A DNA stretch of 64,000 nucleotides, taken from contig JAICWP010000003.1 of assembly GCA_025934735.1 (NCBI GenBank), positions 1 to 64,000 on the forward strand. Direction: 5' to 3'. This stretch comes from Terriglobales bacterium (GTDB lineage Bacteria; Acidobacteriota; Terriglobia; Terriglobales; Acidobacteriaceae). This document shows positions 7,454 to 22,035 of this stretch, piece after piece. A program made the translations under genes and the position numbers. Below the pieces are notes generated by a model. That model was not told the DNA's origin. It made no database searches and saw only the letters and a list, made by a program, of their open reading frames with translations. Numbering within the stretch: position 1 is the first letter of the stretch; each line of letters begins with the position of its first letter.

Positions 7454-7634
7454 CGGAGGCGAAGAGACCAAGCGGCCGGGGATATCCCTAAGCTGCTCGG
7501 GGCATGCCGCGCACGGAGTCCTGTCCAATTTCGTCCCTTTCTAAGGCATGACTTTCGGTTTCTTGCCCCTTTGTGTTTTCCCGCCTATGTTGCGAGTTGT
7601 GTCCGAACTTCACATTTGGCCAAACGGAGCAGAG

Positions 7635-8009
7635 ATGGAGCGGCGGCGAGCGCGCCGATTCGCATTGCGCATTCCGATCATCTTTGAGTGGACAGATGAG
7701 CGGCAAATGCCTTGCGGCGGCGCAGGGTTCAGCCGCGACATCAGCATCAGCGGATTGTTTGTGTGCATCCCTTCCGCAGCGCCTCCCCTGGCCAGCCAGC
7801 TTGATTTAACGGTGCTTCTGCCCTCCCTGGATCCGCTGGGTCCAGGCCTTCGGTTGCGAGCGAACGGCAGCGTAGTTCGTGTGCAACTGACCCCGGAGGG
7901 AGTGGGAGTAGGCATCGCCAGCGCACTCGGCGATTTTGACGATTCGGATCACCCGGCCTTGTCCTTGTCCGAAAACACAGCTGCAGCTCCTTGCTCCTAC
8001 ACGCAATAA
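7635..8009 (+). CDS. PilZ-domain protein (putative c-di-GMP effector)
   Basis: 124 residues. It begins MERRRARRFALRIP, the arginine-rich c-di-GMP switch (RxxxR), and has the second motif D35-I-S-I-S-G40 (D/N-x-S-x-x-G), followed by beta-strand-like sequence. PilZ proteins bind cyclic di-GMP. The start at 7635 has GGAG at 7626-7629; the frame continues 29 codons upstream but without family sequence. It is the last gene before the exopolysaccharide operon, same strand, 101 nt upstream, which suggests a role in c-di-GMP control of it. Confidence 0.85.
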   Translation: MERRRARRFALRIPIIFEWTDERQMPCGGAGFSRDISISGLFVCIPSAAPPLASQLDLTVLLPSLDPLGPGLRLRANGSVVRVQLTPEGVGVGIASALGDFDDSDHPALSLSENTAAAPCSYTQ

Positions 8010-8110: not shown

Positions 8111-8632
8111 ATGTTGTCTGCCAATGTGAGCGATGACCGTCGCTGGTACGCCATTCACACCCGGGCGCGCCACGAAAAGCAGATTGAGTTCCGGTTGCGG
8201 CAGGCAGGCGTGGAGAACTTTCTTCCCCTGATCACGGAGGTGCACCGCTGGAGCGACCGGCGCAAGGAAATTTCGCTGCCGCTGTTCCCCGGCTATGTGT
8301 TCGTGCGCATCGCATCCGACCCGGCCGTGCGCCTGAATGTGCTGAAGACTCCAGGCGTGCTCAATTTTGTAGGCAGGTCATCGGGCGAAATACCCGCCAT
8401 TCCCGAGGACGAGATCGAACGGGTACGGATAGTGATCCGGGAGGAAGCCCGGTTCTTTCCGTGTCCGTTTCTCAAGGAAGGGCAGCGCGTTCGGATACGG
8501 GGAGGCGTGCTGGATGGATTGGAAGGCATTCTCAGTTCGCATAAAGGTGCCTCGACGGTGGTGGTCTCGGTGGAATTGATTCAGCGCTCGGTATCGCTTT
8601 TGGTTGACGGCTATGACGTAGAAGCGGCGTAA
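8111..8632 (+). CDS. NusG-like transcription antiterminator of the UpxY/RfaH type
   Basis: 173 residues. N-terminal NGN domain (about 10-105; WYAIHTRARHEKQIEFRLR, PLFPGYVFVRI) and C-terminal KOW (about 118-150; EGQRVRIRGG...LEGI). It is a specialised paralogue: general nusG normally sits with secE/rplK, while such paralogues at the head of surface-polysaccharide operons bind RNA polymerase and help it read a long operon. All following genes to 30195 are on the same strand with little space, as expected for its target. Confidence 0.9.
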   Translation: MLSANVSDDRRWYAIHTRARHEKQIEFRLRQAGVENFLPLITEVHRWSDRRKEISLPLFPGYVFVRIASDPAVRLNVLKTPGVLNFVGRSSGEIPAIPEDEIERVRIVIREEARFFPCPFLKEGQRVRIRGGVLDGLEGILSSHKGASTVVVSVELIQRSVSLLVDGYDVEAA

Positions 8633-8655: not shown

Positions 8656-9312
8656 ATGAAAAGCTTGATGAGGCTGGGCATGAGTTGGGGCAGAGCGACA
8701 GGATTCGCGGTGGCCGCGTTGGGCGCAATGTGCTTGGTCCTGCCGCTCTGCCGGGCACAGCTGGCGCCGGGCAGCACGGAAACTCGCGGGAGCGCAGCCG
8801 GGAACGGGGCGGCTCCGGTGCTAGCCAGCGATTACGTAATTGGTCCCGACGACGTGCTGGCGGTGAATGTGTGGAAGGAAAATGAAATAAGCCAGGAAGT
8901 GCCGGTTCGGCCCGACGGCAAAGTTTCGCTGCCCCTGATCGGCGATGTGCAAGCCAGCGGCCTCACGCCGCTAGCGCTGCAGCAGAGCATCCGGGCGAAG
9001 CTGGCGTCCTACCTGGTGAATCCCACGGTGGCAGTAATGGTGCGGGAAGCTCGCAGCCACCGCTTCAACGTAGTTGGCGAGGTGCAACACCCCGGATCCT
9101 ACGTGCTGGGGCAGCCGCTGACCGTGCTGGACGCACTGGCCACGGCGGGCGGATTCCGCGACTTCGCCAAAACCGGCAGCATATACGTGCTGCGACTGCA
9201 TGGGGACGGAACGCACGAACGACTGGCCTTCAACTACAAGCAGGTGATTCTGGGCCGCAACCTGGGACAAAACATTCCCCTACGGCCTGGAGACACGGTG
9301 GTGGTGCCATGA
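8656..9312 (+). CDS. Short polysaccharide export (OPX/Wza-like) protein
   Basis: 218 residues. Signal peptide about 1-34 (cleavage after CRA). The Poly_export domain starts at DYVIGPDDVLAVNVW and is followed by one SLBB domain (VVGEVQHPGSYVLG). It stops right after the SLBB domain (RPGDTVVVP), so it lacks the further SLBB and the amphipathic C-terminal helix with which full-length Wza crosses the outer membrane. There is no lipobox. It overlaps the next gene, a beta-barrel protein, by ATGA, which suggests the two form one export channel. Confidence 0.92.
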   Translation: MKSLMRLGMSWGRATGFAVAALGAMCLVLPLCRAQLAPGSTETRGSAAGNGAAPVLASDYVIGPDDVLAVNVWKENEISQEVPVRPDGKVSLPLIGDVQASGLTPLALQQSIRAKLASYLVNPTVAVMVREARSHRFNVVGEVQHPGSYVLGQPLTVLDALATAGGFRDFAKTGSIYVLRLHGDGTHERLAFNYKQVILGRNLGQNIPLRPGDTVVVP

Positions 9313-10610
9313 AGGCGAGGCTCGGCAGGCGCGGGTGGCTGCTGGCCGGTTGCCTGGGACTGGTAACGGCAGGATGGAGCCAGGGGGTGCCGAGTGCCAT
9401 GACGGGAGAAATGCCCGCGGCGGACTTTGCCTCGGCTAGCAAGCAGACCAACCTGGCCGTAATCTCTTTCTCCAGCAGCAGCGTCTTCGACGACAACTTC
9501 AGCAACAGCGCCTCCGGCCACGAGAGCGGCGGACAGCAGTCCCTGAATGCAACGTTCGGGTTCCAGCAGACGCGGCGGAATCTGCGGTGGAACCTAAGCT
9601 ACCGGCCGGGATTGGTAGTGGGCGCGCATTCGTGGCTAGGAAACCAATTCAGCCAGGTGTTGGGCACGACCTCAGAAGTGCAGCCTGCGACCCGCTGGTC
9701 GCTGAAATTACGACAGGACTACAGCCGGACCACCGATCCGTTTGAGCGGCTGGGCGAAGCGCCGCTGCAGCCGGGGCTCAGCCCGCTGGAGAGGCCTAAC
9801 GATCTGCCGCTTCTGCCGCAATTGAGGAGGACGGCGAGCTTTACGGGAGCGGGAGTAAGTTACCGCTTCAGCCGGCATCTGACGGCAGGGCTGAACGGCA
9901 GCTACGCTCTGCAGAACTATAGCGATTACGCCGGCTGGACCGGCGCGCTGATCAACAACCGTACTGCGACTGGGAACACTTACATTTCCCAGCAGGTCTC
10001 GCGGACTTATATTACGGGAGTGGAGTATCGCGTCCGGAGCCTCACTTTTCCGGGATACGAAACGGGCGCGCGCACCCACTCCATACTGTCGTTCCACCAA
10101 TTTGCCGTGAGCGCGAACAGCAGCGTGGTGGTCTACGGCGGTCCAGAGTTTGCCCGCACCCGCGGCCCGATGCTGATTGCACGCAGCACCCCCGCAGTTT
10201 CCGCGTCGTGGTCCCCCGCCGCGGGTGCTATCTATACCTGGTCGGGAATGCACAACCGCCTGCAAGCCGGCTACAGCCGCCAAATCAGCGATGGCGGAGG
10301 GCTGCAAGGGGTGGTGCGATTGAATGCGGGCTGGCTGCGGCTGGCGCGGCAGATGGGGCGTGGTTGGGCGGCCGACCTGAGCAGCGAACTCGCCCAACAG
10401 ACCACATTACCGGGGCGTACCGGCGAGCGGCTGCGGCTGCTGGGAGCGGGAGCCGGCTTCCGTCGCGAACTGGGCGGAAACACTGCCCTCCGGCTGTCCT
10501 ATGACCGTATGTACCAGACGGGAAACGCGCTGGGTTACCGGCCCGGAAACCACAACCGGGTGATGCTCTCAGTAGAACAAAGTTTCACGCGGCCCCTGGG
10601 GAGACGATGA
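9309..10610 (+). CDS. Outer-membrane beta-barrel protein, probable partner of the short OPX
   Basis: 433 residues. Signal peptide about 1-25 (cleavage near GWSQG). The rest alternates hydrophobic and polar residues in strand-like runs with aromatic girdles and ends in an aromatic-containing strand (MLSVEQSFTRPLGRR), as outer-membrane barrels do. There is no helix-rich or enzymatic motif. Start ATG at 9309 overlaps the OPX stop, so the two are translationally coupled. By analogy with the EpsX/EpsY-type composite translocon of Myxococcus xanthus, it would supply the outer-membrane pore. Confidence 0.8.
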   Translation: MKARLGRRGWLLAGCLGLVTAGWSQGVPSAMTGEMPAADFASASKQTNLAVISFSSSSVFDDNFSNSASGHESGGQQSLNATFGFQQTRRNLRWNLSYRPGLVVGAHSWLGNQFSQVLGTTSEVQPATRWSLKLRQDYSRTTDPFERLGEAPLQPGLSPLERPNDLPLLPQLRRTASFTGAGVSYRFSRHLTAGLNGSYALQNYSDYAGWTGALINNRTATGNTYISQQVSRTYITGVEYRVRSLTFPGYETGARTHSILSFHQFAVSANSSVVVYGGPEFARTRGPMLIARSTPAVSASWSPAAGAIYTWSGMHNRLQAGYSRQISDGGGLQGVVRLNAGWLRLARQMGRGWAADLSSELAQQTTLPGRTGERLRLLGAGAGFRRELGGNTALRLSYDRMYQTGNALGYRPGNHNRVMLSVEQSFTRPLGRR

Positions 10611-12184
10611 TGAAGGCGCAGGCTTGCGAGGAGCCGATGAGCCTCACCCAATATGTTGAGATCGGGGTGCGGCGGCGCTGGTGGATACTGGGCATGCTGT
10701 TTGTCGTGTGGACAGGGGTGTGGTCAGCGACGTGGCTGCTGCCCGCGCGCTACCGTTCGGAAACCACCATTCTGATTGATGAATTGCAGGTGCCGGCACA
10801 AAAAGTGGGGGAGGAGAGCGGCCCGGGCTTGCAGGCCCGCCTGCAGACGCTGACGCCGCAGATCCTGAGCCGCACGCGGCTGCAGCGAATCATCGAAGAT
10901 TTGAAGTTATACGGTGAGGGAAAGGGCCGCCCGGCCCCGGAAGCGCTGGTCAGCCAGATGCGGCGCGACATCAAGGTACAACCCTTGCAGGTGGCTGGGC
11001 GGCCCGACGAACTCGCAGCGTTCACACTTTCCTACTCCGCCCACAGCCCAGCCCTGGCACAGCAGGTGGCGAAAAGGCTGACTTCCTTCTTCATTGAGGA
11101 GGATGTGCGCACCCGGGCGGAGCGCTCGCAGCAGACCAGCAGTTTCCTGGATGCCCAACTGGAGGATGCGCGCGCCTGGCTGCAGAAACAGGAAACGCGC
11201 CTGCAGCAATTCAAGGCGCAATACCTCGGCCAGTTGCCCAGCCAGATGCAGGCCAACGTCGCCGAACTGGGCGCTCTCGATAACCGGCTGCAGAATGCCC
11301 GGGAGGAACTGCAACGGGCACAACAGCAGAAGGTTTACCTGAATTCGCTGCTCACGCAGTACCGCGAGCTGCGGGTTGCCGGCAGTTCCGCGTCCAGCGA
11401 CGTAACACAGACACCCCCCGCTCTGGACGCGGAACTGACACGGCTAAGCCGCCAGATGGGCGAGCTTCGCCTGCGGTACACGGAGGAACATCCAGACCTG
11501 ATCCAGCTCCGCCAGCAGTTGGCGAGCACGGAGAAGCTTAAAGCTCAGATGCAGCGGGAACTGACGGTCGAGGGCGGAATAGCACCGAGAGTGGAGTCGG
11601 CAGCCAGCGCGCAAATCCAGAGCCAGCTCAAGGCCAATGAACTAGAGATCAGCGACCGGCAAAAGGAAATGGGTGGCGTACAGGTGGAAATGCGCGCGGC
11701 ACGCGGCCGGCTGCGGAACACACCAATACGGGAACAGCAACTGGCGGAGCTGACGCGGGATTATGACCAGTCGCGCGCGTATTACGAGTCCCTGCTGGCC
11801 AAGAAGAATCAAACGCAGCTGGCCAGCAGCCTGGAGCAACGGCAGCCGGGAGAGCAGTTCCGAATTCTCGATCCGCCCAGTTTGCCCAGTGGCCCATACT
11901 TTCCCAACCGGTTTCGGTTCGCCCTGGCGGGGTTGCTGCTGGGCGCAGTGGCGGGAGGAGCAGCGGCATATGGTTGCGAGATGCTGGACGACCATATCCA
12001 CTCGCGCGGGGAAGTGGAGACGTTGTACGCCGTTCCCATCCTGGCGACCATTCCTCCGGCGCCTGAACCTGATTCATGGCTGCGGCGGCTGCGGGTGGGC
12101 GGGGAGATTGCCGGCGCGACCGCGCTGCTGGCGTTCGTCACCGGGAGCACGTTTCTGGCATTCATAGCCCGCTATCGCGACTAG
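10607..12184 (+). CDS. Wzz-like polysaccharide co-polymerase
   Basis: 525 residues. Wzz domain with membrane helix at about 24-46, a long periplasmic coiled-coil region (about 150-410, rich in Gln/Leu/Arg), then the Pro-rich DPPSLPSGPYFPNRF motif and a second helix at about 440-458. An extra helix ends the protein (about 500-518). It has no ATPase domain; the kinase-like partner is the next gene. Such proteins set chain length and link polymerisation to the OPX protein. ATGA overlap with the barrel gene. Confidence 0.93.
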   Translation: MMKAQACEEPMSLTQYVEIGVRRRWWILGMLFVVWTGVWSATWLLPARYRSETTILIDELQVPAQKVGEESGPGLQARLQTLTPQILSRTRLQRIIEDLKLYGEGKGRPAPEALVSQMRRDIKVQPLQVAGRPDELAAFTLSYSAHSPALAQQVAKRLTSFFIEEDVRTRAERSQQTSSFLDAQLEDARAWLQKQETRLQQFKAQYLGQLPSQMQANVAELGALDNRLQNAREELQRAQQQKVYLNSLLTQYRELRVAGSSASSDVTQTPPALDAELTRLSRQMGELRLRYTEEHPDLIQLRQQLASTEKLKAQMQRELTVEGGIAPRVESAASAQIQSQLKANELEISDRQKEMGGVQVEMRAARGRLRNTPIREQQLAELTRDYDQSRAYYESLLAKKNQTQLASSLEQRQPGEQFRILDPPSLPSGPYFPNRFRFALAGLLLGAVAGGAAAYGCEMLDDHIHSRGEVETLYAVPILATIPPAPEPDSWLRRLRVGGEIAGATALLAFVTGSTFLAFIARYRD

Positions 12185-12202
12185 TCCGAGAATGAGGACG
12201 AA

Positions 12203-13039
12203 ATGAACCCAACCAGTTCCCTTGCGCAGACCGAGGATTGGAGCACCTCGGTGAGAGCACGCCCGTCCCCCGCCGGGCGAGGATGGGACTTGGACTCGCT
12301 TTCCTGGCTGGCGCCCGGGGTTCCCCTGCGCCAGGTGATTTGTATCTTGGGCGCCGGCCAGGATGCAGTGGCGGAACCGATTCGGCTGCTGCACACCCGA
12401 TTGCAGAAGCTGCGGGAGAAGCGCCCGCTGAAAACCGTGATGATCAGCAGCGCTCTGCCGGAAGAAGGCAAGAGCTTTGTAGCGCTGAACCTGGCGGCAA
12501 TTATGTCGCAGCACCCCGGCAGCCGAGTGTTGCTGCTGGAGGCCGACCTGCGCTGGCCATCTTACGGTTGCACGCTCGGGCTGGATCCCGTAGCCGGCCT
12601 GGCGGACTACTGCGGGAGCGGCGAGGGGCTGGCAAAATTTGTTTATCGCATCCGCGGGTCGGACCTGTGCCTGCTGCCGGCGGGCCGCCCGGCTGGACAT
12701 CCCATGAACGTGCTGGCTTCCGGCCGCATGGCGCAAGCGTTGGAAGAAGCCGGGGAAGTCTTTGACTGGGTGCTAGTGGACTCAGCGCCCCTGGTCCCGG
12801 TGGCCGATTCCGCGGCGCTGGCCCAACTCTGTGACGGGCTCCTGCTGGTGGTGCGGCGGAGCCGGGCCATGCATGCCGCGACGCGAGAGGCCCTGGAACG
12901 AATTGATCCGGCCAAGTTGCTCGGCCTGGTGCTGAATGATTTTCCCTGTCTCCCGAGCAGCAAGGCCTACTTCACCAAGCCTGCCGAACCTGCCAGCCAA
13001 GGCCCGATCAGTATCACCGGCTACCGGGAAGCTGTGTGA
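12203..13039 (+). CDS. CpsD/CapB-like BY-kinase-type ATPase
   Basis: 278 residues, cytoplasmic. Walker A SALPEEGKS (K90), Walker A' VLLLEADLR (109-117) and Walker B WVLVDSAP (189-196) are in BY-kinase order. The C-terminal tail holds only two tyrosines (about Y256 and Y274) instead of the usual cluster, so autophosphorylation may be reduced or absent. It would partner the Wzz-like protein encoded just upstream, which gives the split arrangement known from Gram-positives rather than the fused Wzc. Confidence 0.88.
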   Translation: MNPTSSLAQTEDWSTSVRARPSPAGRGWDLDSLSWLAPGVPLRQVICILGAGQDAVAEPIRLLHTRLQKLREKRPLKTVMISSALPEEGKSFVALNLAAIMSQHPGSRVLLLEADLRWPSYGCTLGLDPVAGLADYCGSGEGLAKFVYRIRGSDLCLLPAGRPAGHPMNVLASGRMAQALEEAGEVFDWVLVDSAPLVPVADSAALAQLCDGLLLVVRRSRAMHAATREALERIDPAKLLGLVLNDFPCLPSSKAYFTKPAEPASQGPISITGYREAV

Positions 13040-14220
13040 CTCCAGTCCCGCAGGCAAAGCGCCTGCTGGTATTTGCCATGCGCAAACACAATCTATTGCA
13101 GGCTCTCTCCGGGCTGGCTTCGGACGGGGGACCCGCCAGGCAGCGGGCTGCCCGGGTGGATGCGATGGTAGTGGCCGATGAACCCGCGTTCACCCGCGAC
13201 ATCTACCTGGAGCGCAGACGGGCAGAGCGCAACCAGCGAAGTCTGGTGCTGGTCCTCATAGATGCAACCGCGATTGCTGATATCTCCGCGCGCGCCGCAG
13301 CTCTGCGATATGTGATTCACCGCGTGCCCGACCTGCTGCGCGATACCGACAAGCTGGGCTGGTACCGCAAAGAGAGCATCCTGGGCGTACTTCTTCCCGA
13401 TTTGCGAGGCGTGGATCAGGGCGCGATCCGGATGCTGGCGGACAATTTGTCGAACCTGTTGCAGAAGAGCCTGGGCGCAACCCTCGCAGTAAGCGTGCAA
13501 CTCACGATCCATATTTTTCCCAATCCGTTAAATTTGTGCGGGGAATCGCCCGACTTAACGCTTTATCCGGAATTGCCGGGACAGGAGCAACGTCTGGCGT
13601 TTCAGGCGGAGTTGAAAAGGGCGCTGGATGTGCTGTTCAGCGGGCTGGCGCTGCTGCTGCTGTCGCCGCTTTTGGCCTGTGTGGCCGCGGCCGTCAAATG
13701 CTCCTCGCCCGGGCCAGTTCTGTTTCGGCAGAAACGGCTGGGCCAGTATGGCAAGCCGTTCTGTTTCCTGAAATTCCGCTCGATGTACGCGAACAGCAAT
13801 GCCACCGTACACCAAGAGTACGTAAGCCAATTTATTGCCGGGAGGCCGGCGGCCACAGCAGGCATCTACAAAATCGCCGACGACCCGCGCGTCACAGCCG
13901 TGGGACACGTTCTGCGCAGGACCAGCCTGGATGAGCTGCCGCAGCTGTGGAATGTGTTGCGAGGGGAAATGTCGCTGGTGGGGCCGCGTCCGGCGCTGAG
14001 CTATGAATTCGAGCAATACGCCAGCTGGCACCGGCGGCGGGTGTGGGAAGCCAAACCGGGGATTACGGGGCTTTGGCAGGTGCAGGGCCGCAGCCGGACC
14101 AGTTTTGAGGAAATGGTCCGCTTGGACTTGCGCTATGCGCGGCGCTGGTCGCTGTGGCTGGATGTGAAGATCCTCTGCCAAACACCGGGCGCCGTGCTCA
14201 ACGGCAAAGGGGCTTATTGA
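13036..14220 (+). CDS. Degenerate GGDEF-like domain fused to a sugar phosphoglycosyl transferase
   Basis: 394 residues. Residues about 48-165 look like a GGDEF-fold domain ([37 protein letters not shown]) in which the GGDEF motif itself is replaced by YRKES, so no cyclase activity is expected. From about 190: a membrane hairpin helix (198-220) and the bacterial sugar transferase domain ([38 protein letters not shown]). The latter starts repeat-unit assembly by moving a sugar-phosphate to undecaprenyl phosphate. The GTG start at 13036 overlaps the previous stop; ATG 13078 is an alternative. Confidence 0.9.
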
Positions 14221-14221
14221 C

Positions 14222-15277
14222 ATGGCTGCCGTGGCAGAAAGCCTTTCGCAGGAAGCGTCATCGAATCCCCTGGCAAACGCGGTGCGCGTAGGCGTGATTG
14301 GTTACGGCTACTGGGGCGCCAACATCGTACGCAACCTGCGCAGCGCCGGAGCGAGGGTGCAGGCAGTGTGCGACGTCGAGGAGGATGCGTTGCGGCGCGT
14401 AGCGCAAGCCTACCCGGAGTTGCCGCTGACGAAAGACTCAGCCGAGGTCCTGGCCTCGACCAATATTGATGCGGTGGCGATCGTCACTCCGGTATGGACC
14501 CACTTCGAACTGGCCAAAGCCGCCCTGCAAAACGGCAAACATGTTTTTGTAGAGAAGCCGCTCGCCGCCACCTCACGGCAGGCCGAAGAACTGATCGAAG
14601 TGGCGGAGAAGCACAACTTAATCCTGATGGTGGACCACACGTTCCTGTTTACCGGGGCGGTAAGAAAAATCCGGCAACTCATCCACAGCGGAACACTAGG
14701 AGCGCTCTACTACTATGATTCGACGCGGGTCAACCTGGGCCTATTCCAGCACGATGTGAACGTAGTGTGGGACCTGGCGCCGCACGACATTTCCATCATG
14801 GATTATCTGGTGCACGCGAGGCCGGAGGCGGTAAGCGCCACCGGGCAGAGCCATTTCAGCGGGCTGGAGGATGTGGCCTTCATCACCGTCTATTTTCCCG
14901 ACCGCATGATTGCCCACATCAACGTGAACTGGCTGTCGCCAGTGAAGATAAGGAGTACATTGATCGGCGGACAACGGCGGATGCTGGTATGGAACGACCT
15001 GGAAGCGGACGAGAAGATCCGGGTATACGACCGGGGGGTAAACGTCTCCAAGCGGGAAGAAGTTTATGAGCTGCTGGTGAGCTATCGCTCCGGCGATATA
15101 TGGGTGCCGCACATTGCGGGCACGGAAGCACTGCAAAACGAGCTGGGTTATTTTCTGGAATGCGTGATCCACAAGAAGTCGCCGATTAACAACGGGAAAG
15201 CCGGCTTGCGCGTAGTGAAGCTGCTGGAGTCGGCTTCGCGCTCGCTGGCCAAGGGCGGGGAACTGGTTTACCTGTGA
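14222..15277 (+). CDS. Gfo/Idh/MocA oxidoreductase, WbpB/WlbA-like
   Basis: 351 residues. Rossmann motif G27-Y-G-Y-W-G32 for NAD(P), the EKPLAAT motif with catalytic-region Lys, and the C-terminal Gfo/Idh fold. Together with the next two genes (hexapeptide acetyltransferase and DegT/DnrJ aminotransferase) it matches the WbpB-WbpD-WbpE set, which converts UDP-GlcNAc uronate to UDP-2,3-diacetamido-glucuronate through a 3-keto intermediate. The substrate is inferred from that gene order. The UDP-GlcNAc 6-dehydrogenase (WbpA) is not in the window. Confidence 0.88.
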
Positions 15278-15831
15278 GCGAATTCTGCTGCGTGGCGCCG
15301 GATGTGAAACTGGGGCGGGGGGTCCGCCTGGCCCGGTTCATCAATTTGTACGGCTGCGAAATCGGGGGCGAAACCAGGATCGGCGCCTTCGTCGAAATCC
15401 AGAAGAACGCCAAGGTGGGCAGGCGCTGCAAGATCTCCAGCCACAGCTTTATTTGCGAGGGCGTGACCATCGAAGACAATGTGTTTGTCGGCCACGGCGT
15501 GGTCTTTATCAACGACATTTACCCGCGTGCCACCACGGCCGCCGGAGCCCTGCAAAGCGAGCAGGACTGGAAGGTGGGACCGACGGTGGTGCGCCGGGGA
15601 GCATCCCTAGGTTCCGGCGCCACCATACTGGCCCGCGTCACGATTGGCGAAAACGCAATAGTAGGAGCCGGAAGCGTGGTCACCAAAGATGTTCCCGCCA
15701 ATAGCATCGTAGCGGGCAATCCGGCACGAATTTTCCGCTACCTGAGGGAAACGCAAAGGCGCAACCATGGATCTCACATCTTCCGTCCCATTTCTCGATC
15801 TGGTCAGCCCGCATCGCGAACTGCACGATGA
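15274..15831 (+). CDS. Left-handed beta-helix N-acetyltransferase, WbpD/WlbB-like
   Basis: 185 residues built of hexapeptide repeats (for example [37 protein letters not shown]), the fold of acyl-CoA-dependent N-acetyltransferases; ends of the helix region at about 160. In the WbpD role it acetylates the 3-amino group of the UDP-amino-uronate. The start is a GTG overlapping the previous stop (GTGA). The 3' end overlaps the aminotransferase gene by 65 nt, so its last ~20 residues ([13 protein letters not shown]...) are probably not conserved. Confidence 0.85.
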
Positions 15832-16987
15832 AATCCTGGCGGTAGTCAGCCAGGCCTTGAGCACCGCTGTGTTCACCAATGGCCCCATGCTGCTGCAGTT
15901 CGAAACGGCCTTTGCCGACTTCTGCGGCACTCGCCATTGCATTGGCGTAAGCAGCGGCACGGATGCTCTGCGCTTTGCCTTACTGGCGGCGGGAATCGGA
16001 GCGGGGCAAGCGGTAATCACCGTGCCCAACAGTTTCATCGCCACTGCCGAGGCAGTGGTGCAGTCCGGGGCCCTGCCAGAATTCGTGGATGTAGACCCGA
16101 CAACCTGCAATTTGAGTGTGAACAAACTGCGGGAGTATCTGAGCGCGCATTGCCGGCGAGAGGGAGAGGGCCACCTGATCAGCCGGCGTAGCGGACGGCG
16201 TGTGACTGCGATTTTGCCGGTTCATTTATACGGCCAGCCCGCGGATATGGACCCGATTATGGAGCTGGCAGAGCACCATGAGCTGGCAGTGATTGAGGAT
16301 GCGTGCCAGGCGCACGGGGCGGAATATATCTCGCAGGCCGCCAACCGATGGCGGCCGGCAGGCTCGATAGGGCGCGCCGCGGCGTTCAGTTTCTATCCCG
16401 GCAAGAATCTGGGCGCCTGCGGGGAGGCCGGCGCAGTCACCACCGACGACGACGAACTCGCGCGCAAGGTGCGCATGCTGCGCGACCACGGCCAGGCGCA
16501 CAAATATGAGCATGCGATCGAGGGCTATAACGGGCGCATGGATACGATTCAGGCGGGCATTCTGCTGGCCAAGCTGCGCCGCTTACAGGAGTGGAACCAG
16601 CAGCGGCGTTCCGCGGCCAGTCGCTATCGTGAACTCTTTGCGGAGTGCCCAGGGGTGGGCCTGCCGCGGGAGCCGGACTACGCGCGTTCGAATTACCACC
16701 TGTTCGTGATTCGCGTCGCGGAACGGGATGCCCTGCTGGAGCACCTTGGGGAAGCCGGGATAGGAGCCGCGATTCATTATCCCGTCCCAATCCATCTGCA
16801 GTCCGCGTTCCGCTATTTGGGCTATAAGAGCGGCGATTTTCCGGTGGCGGAGCGCCTGGCGACAGAGGTGCTGTCCGTTCCCATGTACCCGCACCTGCAG
16901 TCAAGCGAGCAGGAGCGAGTGGTGGAAGTGATTCGCAATTTTCTGCCGACTGAGAGCGAGACAGCGCGTCTGGCGGCAGTGTCGTAA
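15767..16987 (+). CDS. DegT/DnrJ/EryC1 PLP aminotransferase, WbpE/WlbC-like
   Basis: 406 residues. Typical start [17 protein letters not shown], phosphate-binding [19 protein letters not shown] and the PLP lysine K213 in [11 protein letters not shown]. These enzymes aminate keto-sugars with glutamate as donor; beside the WbpB- and WbpD-like genes it would form the 3-amino group. ATG at 15767 is used because the family N-terminus begins a few residues later. Confidence 0.91.
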
Positions 16988-18952: not shown

Positions 18953-20452
18953 ATGATGCGAGTTCTGATGACCGCTGGCTGGCTGGTGCTAGCAATAGCC
19001 ACTATTTGCCCAGCGAAAGACATGTACATCGCCCAGAATGCGGCAGGCCGCAGCGATGGCGCCGATTGCGCCAACGCCTTCCGCTATGCGTTTTTTAACG
19101 ACCCGGCCAACTGGGGCAGTGGCGCGGCGCAGATCGGCCCCGGAACCACGGTGCACCTGTGCGGCGTGGTCACCACTTTCAATGGCGCTGCGTATGATTA
19201 CCTGACCTTCCGCGGCAGTGGGGCGAGCGGCCAGCCAATCACTCTGAAATGGGAGCCCAACGCCCGGCTTAGCCTGCCCACCTGTGGCAGCGGCTCCTGC
19301 ATTTTGTTCAGCGGCAGGACTTACCTGGTGTTGGACGGGGGCAGCAACGGGGTGGTGGAGGAAACGGACAATGGCAGCACCCTTGGCCACCAGGACCGGC
19401 ACACGGCGCTCTATGGGCGGCCTTGTAGCCATTGCGAGTTCAAGAATCTGGCACTGCGCAACATCTACGTGCACTCGCTCGCCTCGGACGATATCGGGGC
19501 CGACGCCCTTACGGTCTCCGGCCCCGGTATTCTCATGCACCACATGAGCTGCAGCCATGCCAGCGGCTGCTTCACTATCTCGGTGAGCGGAGCGGACGAC
19601 AGCGTGGAGATGTACAACCTGGACTCCAGCAATACCAACCACTGCATGACCCTCGCCGCCAATGGCGCGGGCTACGCGTTGCTATCGGCGCGCATTCACG
19701 ACAATAACTGCCAAGACTTCGCCAACTGGGATACGACCAGCAACGCGTTCCACCACGATGGCATTCACCTATACGCGCTGAACGGCGCCACTTTCCGCGA
19801 TGTGCAGGTTTACAACAACCTGTTTGGCGGGGATCCCGGCGTTAACGTGACTTCCTTCATCTATGCCACCGGCGCCATCAGCGATTCTTTGTTCTTCAAC
19901 AACGTGATGCTCACGCCGGCGGACAAATACTTCAACAATGGAGTGTTCTGCGCCGGGGGAGACAGAATCTCCATTTACAACAATCTGATTCTGGGCGGGA
20001 CCAGTGCTTCCGGGCTGTGCCTGGCGACCAGCGGAACCGGCATTGCAGTGAGAAATAACCTGGTGGGCAAGTGCTCCGGACTGGTTTCGCTGGCGGCAGG
20101 AACGACGTTTGCCGACCGCGGCCTCGACCACAATGTTTATGGTCCGGGACAGAACTGGAAGAGCGGCAGCACGTTTTACTACACATTGGAGCCGTGGAAA
20201 ACGGCGTCGGGCGAAGGAGCACATTCGCTGAGCGCCGCCGATTTAAAGGTGGACTCCAAGGGACGGCCGCAGCCCGGCTCACCCGCCATTAACGCCGGGG
20301 CGAATCTTTCCTATCACGCGCTCCCAGCGCTAAACGCCGACAGAGTGGGCGACCCGCGCTCGGCTTGCAGCGCGTGGGATGCCGGACCGTACAATCATTA
20401 TCCTGTCCCGAGTGCCGCCACCGATCTGTGGCCGTTCCAGGCCGCACCCTAA
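18953..20452 (+). CDS. Secreted right-handed beta-helix protein
   Basis: 499 residues. Signal peptide about 1-20 (ends TICPAK). The body contains many Asn-ended short repeats (VYNNLFGG, FFNNVMLTP, IYNNLILGG, VRNNLVGK) typical of right-handed parallel beta-helices such as pectate lyases, alginate epimerases and related carbohydrate-active proteins. No catalytic set could be assigned. Position inside the operon suggests it modifies or cuts the polymer in the periplasm or outside. Tandem ATGs (18953, 18956) leave the exact start open. Confidence 0.82.
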   Translation: MMRVLMTAGWLVLAIATICPAKDMYIAQNAAGRSDGADCANAFRYAFFNDPANWGSGAAQIGPGTTVHLCGVVTTFNGAAYDYLTFRGSGASGQPITLKWEPNARLSLPTCGSGSCILFSGRTYLVLDGGSNGVVEETDNGSTLGHQDRHTALYGRPCSHCEFKNLALRNIYVHSLASDDIGADALTVSGPGILMHHMSCSHASGCFTISVSGADDSVEMYNLDSSNTNHCMTLAANGAGYALLSARIHDNNCQDFANWDTTSNAFHHDGIHLYALNGATFRDVQVYNNLFGGDPGVNVTSFIYATGAISDSLFFNNVMLTPADKYFNNGVFCAGGDRISIYNNLILGGTSASGLCLATSGTGIAVRNNLVGKCSGLVSLAAGTTFADRGLDHNVYGPGQNWKSGSTFYYTLEPWKTASGEGAHSLSAADLKVDSKGRPQPGSPAINAGANLSYHALPALNADRVGDPRSACSAWDAGPYNHYPVPSAATDLWPFQAAP

Positions 20453-20472
20453 GACGTATTGCCCGGCGTGCC

Positions 20473-22035
20473 ATGGCCTCCACTGCGCGACAACTGAGCA
20501 GCGCCTCCGCTTTCCGGGTATTCAGTTTTTTTGTCACCACCGCCGTCTCCCTGGCGATGATGCCCTTCATCGTGCACACGCTGGGAGACCGGATGTACGG
20601 ACTGTGGGCGCTGGTGGCGACTCTGCTGGGCTACTACGGAGTGCTCGACTTTGGGCTGACCCCGGCGGTGTGCCAGCATGTAGCGGTGGCGCTGGGGCGC
20701 GGCGATCGCGAGGCCTGCAACGGCGTGGTAGCCGCCAGCCTGCGATTTTTTCTGGCAGTCGGGATGGTGGTTCTGCTCCTCAGCGGGGTGGCAGCGGTGT
20801 GCGCTCCTGGAATGGCCAGGAGCGCGGACCAGGCCTCCCTCTTTTCGCAAATCATACTGATTCTCGGTATCAGCACCGCAGTAAGTTTCCCCTCGCGGGT
20901 GTTCACCGGGTTTCTAATCGCCAACCTGCGCTATGACCTGATGGTCGGCGCCGAACTGGTCGCCCTCGCCCTGCGCACCAGCCTGATCCTCTCGGTTCTT
21001 CTCCTGGGACACGGGCTGGTGGCCATGGCGTGGGCGACTTTTACTGGCAGCATGGTTGGCATGGTTTTGCAGGCCTGGTTGACTATCAGGAAGTATCCCT
21101 GGCTGCGTTTGCGGCTGAGAGCGCCACGCACCGGACTGACCCGCAGCCTGGCTTCCTACAGCATCTTTTCCTTTGCCGGGCAGGTTTCAGACCGGCTGCG
21201 CTTTCAGGCCGACCCGGTGGTCATCTCCATGTTTGTGGGCCTGGCGGCGGTAACCCATTACCGCATCGCCAGCACCCTGGCACAACAATTTGTTGTGCTC
21301 ACAGTGGCAATCACCGGCGTGTTCGCGCCGCTGCTCAGCCGTAAGTACGGGGCGGGCGATTTCGCGGGCTTGCGTTCAACCTTCTTCTTTGCCACGAAGG
21401 TCTCAATTTGTGTGGCCAGCTTTCTGGGCTTCGGCCTGATCGCGTGGGGCAAGCCTTTCATCCTGCGCTGGATGGGGCCGGCGTACCTGGACGCATATTG
21501 GCCACTGGTGATCCTGGCGGTCGCGATCGCATTCGACCTTTGGCAAGCCCCGTCGGTGGACCTGCTCTACGCCATTGCCAAGCACCGGGCGTACGCCTGC
21601 CTCAACTCCGTGGAGGGCGTTCTGAACCTGGGACTCAGCTTATGGCTGGTACGCCGCTACGGAATGCTGGGGGTGGCGCTGGGCACGCTGGGATCCATGA
21701 CGGTGATGCGGCTGGTGGTTCAGCCGATTTGGGTGTGCCGGCTGGCGCAACTCCCCTACCGCGACTACATGAAGCTGGCCGGGTCGGCCCTGGGCGGGAC
21801 GCTTGTGGCGGCAAGCCTGGCCTGGCTGATCTGCGGTTGGGCGATTCGCCCGGCTTACTGGCAACTGGCCAGCTCAGCCGGAGTTGCGGTGTGCGTGTAC
21901 GGGATCGCCGTTCTGTTTCTGGTGTTCAGCAGCGCCGACCGACGGCGAGTGGGGTCAGCGCTGGCTCCCCTCACGCGACTTTTGCATCCCCAGCAGCTGC
22001 CGGCGATCGCAAGTCCGGCCCCGCCGGCGCAGTAA
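20473..22035 (+). CDS. Wzx-type polysaccharide flippase
   Basis: 520 residues and about 12-14 hydrophobic helices from residue 10 on (FRVFSFFVTTAVSLAMMPFI, TLGDRMYGLWALVATLLGYY). It belongs to the MOP/polysaccharide-synthase family, which flips the lipid-linked repeat unit to the periplasm. ATG at 20473 starts just before the first helix; upstream in-frame sequence is inside the previous gene. No strong Shine-Dalgarno. Confidence 0.9.
   Translation: MASTARQLSSASAFRVFSFFVTTAVSLAMMPFIVHTLGDRMYGLWALVATLLGYYGVLDFGLTPAVCQHVAVALGRGDREACNGVVAASLRFFLAVGMVVLLLSGVAAVCAPGMARSADQASLFSQIILILGISTAVSFPSRVFTGFLIANLRYDLMVGAELVALALRTSLILSVLLLGHGLVAMAWATFTGSMVGMVLQAWLTIRKYPWLRLRLRAPRTGLTRSLASYSIFSFAGQVSDRLRFQADPVVISMFVGLAAVTHYRIASTLAQQFVVLTVAITGVFAPLLSRKYGAGDFAGLRSTFFFATKVSICVASFLGFGLIAWGKPFILRWMGPAYLDAYWPLVILAVAIAFDLWQAPSVDLLYAIAKHRAYACLNSVEGVLNLGLSLWLVRRYGMLGVALGTLGSMTVMRLVVQPIWVCRLAQLPYRDYMKLAGSALGGTLVAASLAWLICGWAIRPAYWQLASSAGVAVCVYGIAVLFLVFSSADRRRVGSALAPLTRLLHPQQLPAIASPAPPAQ

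Follow-up and report, generated by a model that had tools for sequence, protein, structure and literature searches.

The window, a stretch of 64,000 nucleotides, carries a polysaccharide gene run in which a single polypeptide combines a GGDEF-like domain with a monotopic phosphoglycosyl transferase (Table 1). The kinase gene ends at 13039, and its stop codon shares bases with the GTG start (13036) of the fusion gene. The export protein, the Wzz protein and the kinase (8656-13039) are nearest to the XrtA/PEP-CTERM models TIGR03027, TIGR03007 and TIGR03018, all below cut-off. Downstream, the GFO/IDH oxidoreductase, acetyltransferase and aminotransferase genes (14222-16987) look like a UDP-2,3-diamino-sugar cassette, which perhaps makes the donor of the priming enzyme. 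A gene for a PilZ protein, already noticed in the preliminary description, lies upstream of the operon and encodes both PilZ motifs, RxxxR and DxSxxG (PMC7288161).

Table 1. Genes of the operon and features of the fusion protein (positions in the window; residue numbers of the fusion protein)
Feature	Position	Strand	Evidence or remark
PilZ protein ahead of the operon; motifs RxxxR and DxSxxG (DISISG)	7548..8009	+	PF07238 4.4e-7
UpxY/NusG-like antiterminator	8111..8632	+	NF033644 above cut-off
Polysaccharide export (OPX) protein	8656..9312	+	PF02563 2.3e-25
433-aa protein (orf433)	9309..10610	+	no Pfam/NCBIfam match; conserved in operon
Wzz/PCP chain-length protein (XrtA-type)	10607..12184	+	TIGR03007 7.6e-82, just under cut-off
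MinD/BcsQ-like kinase (XrtA-type tyrosine autokinase family)	12203..13039	+	TIGR03018 5.5e-38, below cut-off
Fusion gene: degenerate GGDEF domain and monotopic phosphoglycosyl transferase	13036..14220	+	394 aa, GTG start
Degenerate GGDEF domain, residues 45-178	13168..13569	+	range aligned to PleD 2wb4, plus profile evidence
R62, matching PleD R313 (contributes an I-site arm to the partner subunit)	13219..13221	+	R in 38/38
R102-D-T-D105, I-site RxxD (PleD R359/D362)	13339..13350	+	R 37/38, D 37/38
Slot where GG(D/E)EF has been lost (residues 111-115); reads RKESI in this protein	13366..13380	+	RxxD spacing as in WspR
N137 (AAT), possible fourth I-site arm; Asn only here	13444..13446	+	R 65, K 11, N 1 of 77
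Bac_transf catalytic domain, residues 194-388	13615..14199	+	PF02397 E 4e-66
GFO/IDH oxidoreductase, UDP-GlcNAc 3-dehydrogenase-like	14222..15277	+	Pfam/NCBIfam
Hexapeptide acetyltransferase	15274..15831	+	domain search
DegT-family aminotransferase	15767..16987	+	PF01041 4e-115
Wzx-like flippase, same gene run	20365..22035	+	PF01943 5.1e-12

The C-terminal half of the fusion protein is a Bac_transf domain scoring 222 bits against a cut-off of 27. Its Asp-Glu pair D299-E300 (13930-13935), which we take to be the catalytic pair of a monotopic phosphoglycosyl transferase, is present in all 70 aligned rows, and the transferase half of the AlphaFold2 model superimposes on WbaP 8t53 (Z 21.2, 157 residues, 1.5 A) and PglC 8e37 (Z 19.8). 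TIGR03025, TIGR03022 and TIGR03023 align to the protein only from model position 253-259 onward. Before residue 188 the structural model contains no membrane bundle and has a mixed alpha/beta, GGDEF-like domain instead. By its modelled N-terminal architecture, the protein is not a large phosphoglycosyl transferase of the WbaP/EpsZ type, with a four-helix bundle and a cytoplasmic domain.

Profile comparisons and the predicted structure indicate that the N-terminal part (about residues 45-178) is homologous to GGDEF domains and has their predicted fold. Single-sequence searches alone would have missed this relationship: scanned directly with Pfam/NCBIfam, the window protein gave no GGDEF match, with Bac_transf as the sole Pfam family recognized; a phmmer search of PDB sequences with the N-terminal half returned only 3ign (E 1.1). 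An HMM built from 18 N-domains was searched against 396 genomes of the phylum and found matches in 121. The best of these were the same fusion, and the next were ordinary diguanylate cyclases, in which Pfam GGDEF was recognized in 10 of 10 checked (11 loci fetched). When 77 N-domains were scanned singly with Pfam, 12 matched GGDEF (best 8e-5), and matches to any other family stayed at two domains or fewer. The best PDB sequences for the N-domain profile were 5euh (E 0.0014) and 4zve (0.012), both GGDEF. Profile-profile alignment with ten acidobacterial GGDEF domains yielded 98.4 % and E 4.3e-15 over 115 columns, a value flattered by the choice of these ten as family-profile matches. Chance resemblance is ruled out by the controls (five column-shuffled, one reversed), which gave E 0.25-0.41.

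The predicted structure adds an independent line of support for GGDEF homology. The model, computed from a 70-row alignment (mean pLDDT 84.8), has helices at residues 49-65, 83-100 and 128-151 and strands at 69-76, 106-111, 115-123 and 155-161, and matches GGDEF structures over residues 41/45-178. Among the matches listed, 6khu comes first (Z 13.6, 122 residues, 2.5 A); WspR 3i5a reaches Z 10.5 and PleD 2wb4 Z 10.0 over residues 45-178. Among the 50 structural matches listed, three are phosphoglycosyl transferases and nearly all the rest GGDEF domains or diguanylate cyclases, with Z to about 9.8; PelD and BcsE are absent among these 50, which excludes nothing. A WbaP cytoplasmic domain as the identity of the N-terminal half is ruled out by the match to GGDEF structures. 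The preliminary description had recognized a GGDEF-like pattern at residues 48-165, in the same polypeptide as the priming transferase, and had named structure prediction as a check; the profile and structure comparisons agree with it.

We then compared individual residues, in PleD numbering, across 38 distinct domains (34 fused, 4 stand-alone) collected by the relatives search and the HMM search; the comparison set was 21 GGDEF rows from the phylum, of which three repeat the same genes. The GG(D/E)EF motif occurs in none of the 38 and in none of the 77 aligned N-domains. Its slot, placed by the five-residue spacing after RxxD, reads RKESI in the window protein, in line with the first reading of a replaced active motif (YRKES). 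The equivalent of N335 is gapped in all 38 domains and those of K332, D344, K442 and R446 are not conserved, while the position of D327 holds D in 19 and E in 9. With motif and GTP-binding residues gone, the N-domain is, by its sequence, catalytically dead as a diguanylate cyclase.

The residues of the c-di-GMP pocket have had a different fate. The I-site of PleD is described as R359, D362 and R390 plus R313 from the neighbouring subunit (PMC12943098, PMC7288161), and that of WspR as R242xxD245, ahead of GGEEF at 251, with R198 from the partner (PMC2270323); in both proteins, c-di-GMP at this site is reported to bridge two GGDEF domains (PMC2270323, PMC7288161). In the window protein, R102-D-T-D105 sits exactly at the RxxD position, and both R and D are present in 36 of the 38 domains. 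E59, R62, R65, R102, T104, D105 and G108 are invariant in the 77 aligned domains, 69 of which came from a scan whose search patterns held either RxTD or the stretch around R62/R65. Because these patterns contain the residues in question, the scan rows are unusable as independent evidence for RxTD and R62/R65. Residue counts are therefore based on the 38 domains, for which the 18-row alignment profile rewards the RxxD motif, too; the scan for conserved stretches used a tighter 8-row alignment. Retention is in part inheritance, because RxxD and the helix arginines are common in active GGDEF domains of the phylum (R359 in 21/21, D362 in 18/21 and R313 in 15/21 rows, three of the 21 being repeats). 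What matters for our argument is that the I-site, judging from these alignments, has outlived everything around it; the site itself is not new.

Whether a fourth I-site arm exists is uncertain for the whole family. Column 137 is Arg or Lys in 76 of the 77 aligned domains and lies 32 residues after D105, a spacing identical to that reported from D370 to R402 in PelD (PMC7112168), but the profile alignment places PleD R390 at residue 133 instead, where the family mostly has T. The sole exception in column 137 is the window protein itself, and its Asn weakens the case for ligand binding in this particular copy. At one further locus (L066), the fused copy has S in place of R102 and the neighbouring stand-alone copy has E in place of D105, in a genome (G430) with only two GGDEF matches. 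If the site serves c-di-GMP, its loss in a genome with so few GGDEF matches would be expected; as one case, it proves nothing.

The fusion is a recurrent architecture within the Acidobacteriota. Apart from the genome of the window, 17 of 60 relatives have a homologue that includes the N-terminal half, mostly at 44-51 % identity, and the best 80 of 213 relatives contain the fusion in 76 named acidobacterial loci, that is, loci with titles naming Acidobacteria/Acidobacteriota or groups within. An I-site RxxD and related fusions in relatives, both proposed as checks in the preliminary description, are thus present, the former nearly invariant in the family. Mostly, the fusion belongs to one kind of polysaccharide operon, in which homologues of the window genes recur, largely in the same order. 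Among the 76 loci (from the best 80 of 213 relatives), homologues were counted upstream for the export protein in at least 44, orf433 in at least 51, Wzz in at least 58 and the kinase in at least 67, and downstream for GFO/IDH in at least 57, the hexapeptide transferase in at least 53 and DegT in at least 51; these are minima because many contigs end early. The orf433 homologues, encoded between export protein and Wzz, share 21-31 % identity.

Of 15 loci with enough flank, one candidate ORF upstream of the antiterminator gene was scanned in each of 10, and Pfam recognized PilZ in six of these ten and nothing in the other four. With tblastn, PilZ was found in 2 of the 76 loci (best 80 of 213 relatives), a poor count because flanks are short and PilZ diverges. 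Canonical GGDEF genes occur in all 33 fusion-bearing genomes searched (2-27 matches each), which is weak evidence because such genes are common in the phylum.

Several loci encode the N-domain also as a protein of its own. Stand-alone copies (frames of 179-217 aa) were found in 8 of the 76 loci from the best 80 of 213 relatives (L092, L093, L096, L098, L101, L108, L133, L145), and genome searches added four further loci (L017/L057, L066, L067, L069) with copies of 142-191 aa. The stand-alone frame adjoins the fused gene in L108, L066, L067 and L069. Stand-alone copies may therefore form mixed pairs with the fused enzyme. Two of the loci have additional peculiarities: in L098 (4955-7812), a gene ahead of the fusion gene codes for an amino-acid kinase that has an ACT domain, and ATP-grasp and FemAB genes are present as well; in L133 (6411-9038), an ACT-domain amino-acid kinase and the fusion share one 876-aa frame, which is either a three-part fusion or an assembly error.

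The closest known parallels are PelD and BcsE, described in PMC7112168 and PMC7439463 as degenerate GGDEF proteins with control over polysaccharide production and with c-di-GMP bound at their I-site. With PelD, the window domain shares a dead, degenerate GGDEF domain, an intact RxxD and a polysaccharide operon, and with P. aeruginosa PelD also a possible basic arm 32 residues past the Asp; for B. cereus PelD, PMC7112168 reports no detectable binding when RxxD or R395 was mutated (R395 to alanine), and the R395 result counts against binding by the window copy with its N137. However, PelD is a separate membrane protein with a GAF domain in a synthase-dependent system, whereas the window domain shares its polypeptide with the catalytic priming enzyme of a Wzx/Wzy-type system and comes without a GAF domain. 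BcsE of enterobacterial cellulose synthesis, in which the I-site (RTGD) works, resembles it in a severely degenerate GGDEF domain with RxxD and in a MinD-family ATPase alongside, but serves as an accessory protein: it carries NTD and REC* domains and is not fused to an enzyme. PleD and WspR share the fold and the equivalents of R313, R359 and D362, and in WspR the spacing from RxxD to the motif is reported to be the same (R242xxD245/251 versus R102xxD105/111); both are active enzymes, and the window domain lacks the catalytic motif and K442/R446 and has a loop about six residues shorter.

Among phosphoglycosyl transferases, WbaP and EpsZ (with its regulator EpsW) share with the window protein the C-terminal catalytic domain and the idea of an initiating step regulated by a cytoplasmic module, but differ in that the window protein has a GGDEF-like N-terminal half, no four-helix membrane bundle and no WbaP-type cytoplasmic domain. 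PglC, a small monotopic enzyme, shares the catalytic domain and has no regulatory domain. Other small phosphoglycosyl transferases are reported with regulatory domains, including receiver domains (PMC12802240, citing O'Toole 2021). I-site receptor and priming enzyme are thus each of a known kind; in our search of a largely open-access literature, we found no title or abstract reporting a fusion of GGDEF and phosphoglycosyl transferase domains.

We propose that the N-domain is a former diguanylate cyclase domain that now acts, like PelD and BcsE, as an I-site receptor for c-di-GMP and gates the initiation of repeat units, a reading to which we assign a probability of roughly 60 %. The preliminary description had suggested that c-di-GMP or another nucleotide controls initiation allosterically through a non-catalytic GGDEF fold; this is supported in part, with the fold, the loss of catalysis, the fusion, its recurrence in relatives and the PilZ neighbour all confirmed. 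As I-site c-di-GMP is reported to bridge two GGDEF domains in PleD and WspR, the simplest interpretation would be that it pairs the fused enzymes. c-di-GMP, as an intercalated dimer, would bind to R102 and D105 and be bridged by R62 of a second subunit, and could thereby pair or re-orient two fused enzymes at the membrane. By this means it would gate the step at which undecaprenyl phosphate receives the first sugar-phosphate, and with it the onset of repeat-unit synthesis. Large phosphoglycosyl transferases are reported to act as dimers, and in Myxococcus the phosphorylated response regulator EpsW is proposed to promote dimeric, active EpsZ (PMC12802240). Since PelD and BcsE are described as stimulating and a partner-induced dimer as activating EpsZ, control by activation appears likelier than by inhibition. 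A more far-reaching version, which we offer only tentatively, is that in Acidobacteriota the initiating enzyme of a Wzx/Wzy-type pathway is itself such a receptor, with the RxxD and R62 cross-link as a monomer/dimer switch that stand-alone copies tune through mixed pairs.

The main rival is a ligand-free scaffold, in which the N-domain pairs transferases, or docks the upstream MinD/BcsQ-like kinase or the stand-alone copy, and so replaces the dimerizing membrane bundle and cytoplasmic domain of WbaP-type enzymes, the arginines being structural or interface contacts. The kinase gene is conserved in at least 67 of the 76 loci from the best 80 of 213 relatives, and the degenerate GGDEF domain of BcsE is reported to bind the MinD-family protein BcsQ through a surface other than the I-site (PMC7439463). 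The stand-alone copies at the same locus (8 of these 76, and 4 further) and the N137 of the window copy, which weakens the case for a ligand there, fit this explanation as well. But a scaffold alone does not predict that exactly R62, R102 and D105 are kept while the GGDEF slot drifts freely, and the PilZ gene often found ahead of the operon speaks against it, too. We therefore regard a pure scaffold as less probable, and receptor function as the better account of the residue pattern.

Sensing of a different nucleotide, such as GTP, (p)ppGpp, cGAMP or the nucleotide-sugar donor, seems unlikely to us. GTP binding or ATP hydrolysis by degenerate GGDEF domains has been described (PMC7288161), and the D327 equivalent is D or E in 28 of the 38 domains, but the family has lost N335, D344, K442, R446 and the GGDEF turn and kept the I-site. 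That the N-domain is still a working cyclase, making its signal beside the transferase, has the fold and nothing further in its favour and is ruled out for practical purposes by the missing GG(D/E)EF motif (0/38 and 0/77) and the absent N335.

Direct control by c-di-GMP is well described for synthase-dependent polysaccharides, and post-translational control of Wzx/Wzy pathways is described as incompletely understood (PMC12802240). The loss of the catalytic parts together with the retention of the c-di-GMP pocket residues suggests that the first step of polysaccharide production may be under direct second-messenger control in these bacteria. If our reading is true, it would widen the group of I-site receptors beyond accessory proteins to include the initiating enzyme. 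It would also allow the question of Wzx/Wzy control to be studied, across a widespread soil phylum, in one polypeptide that can be purified and has clear point mutants.
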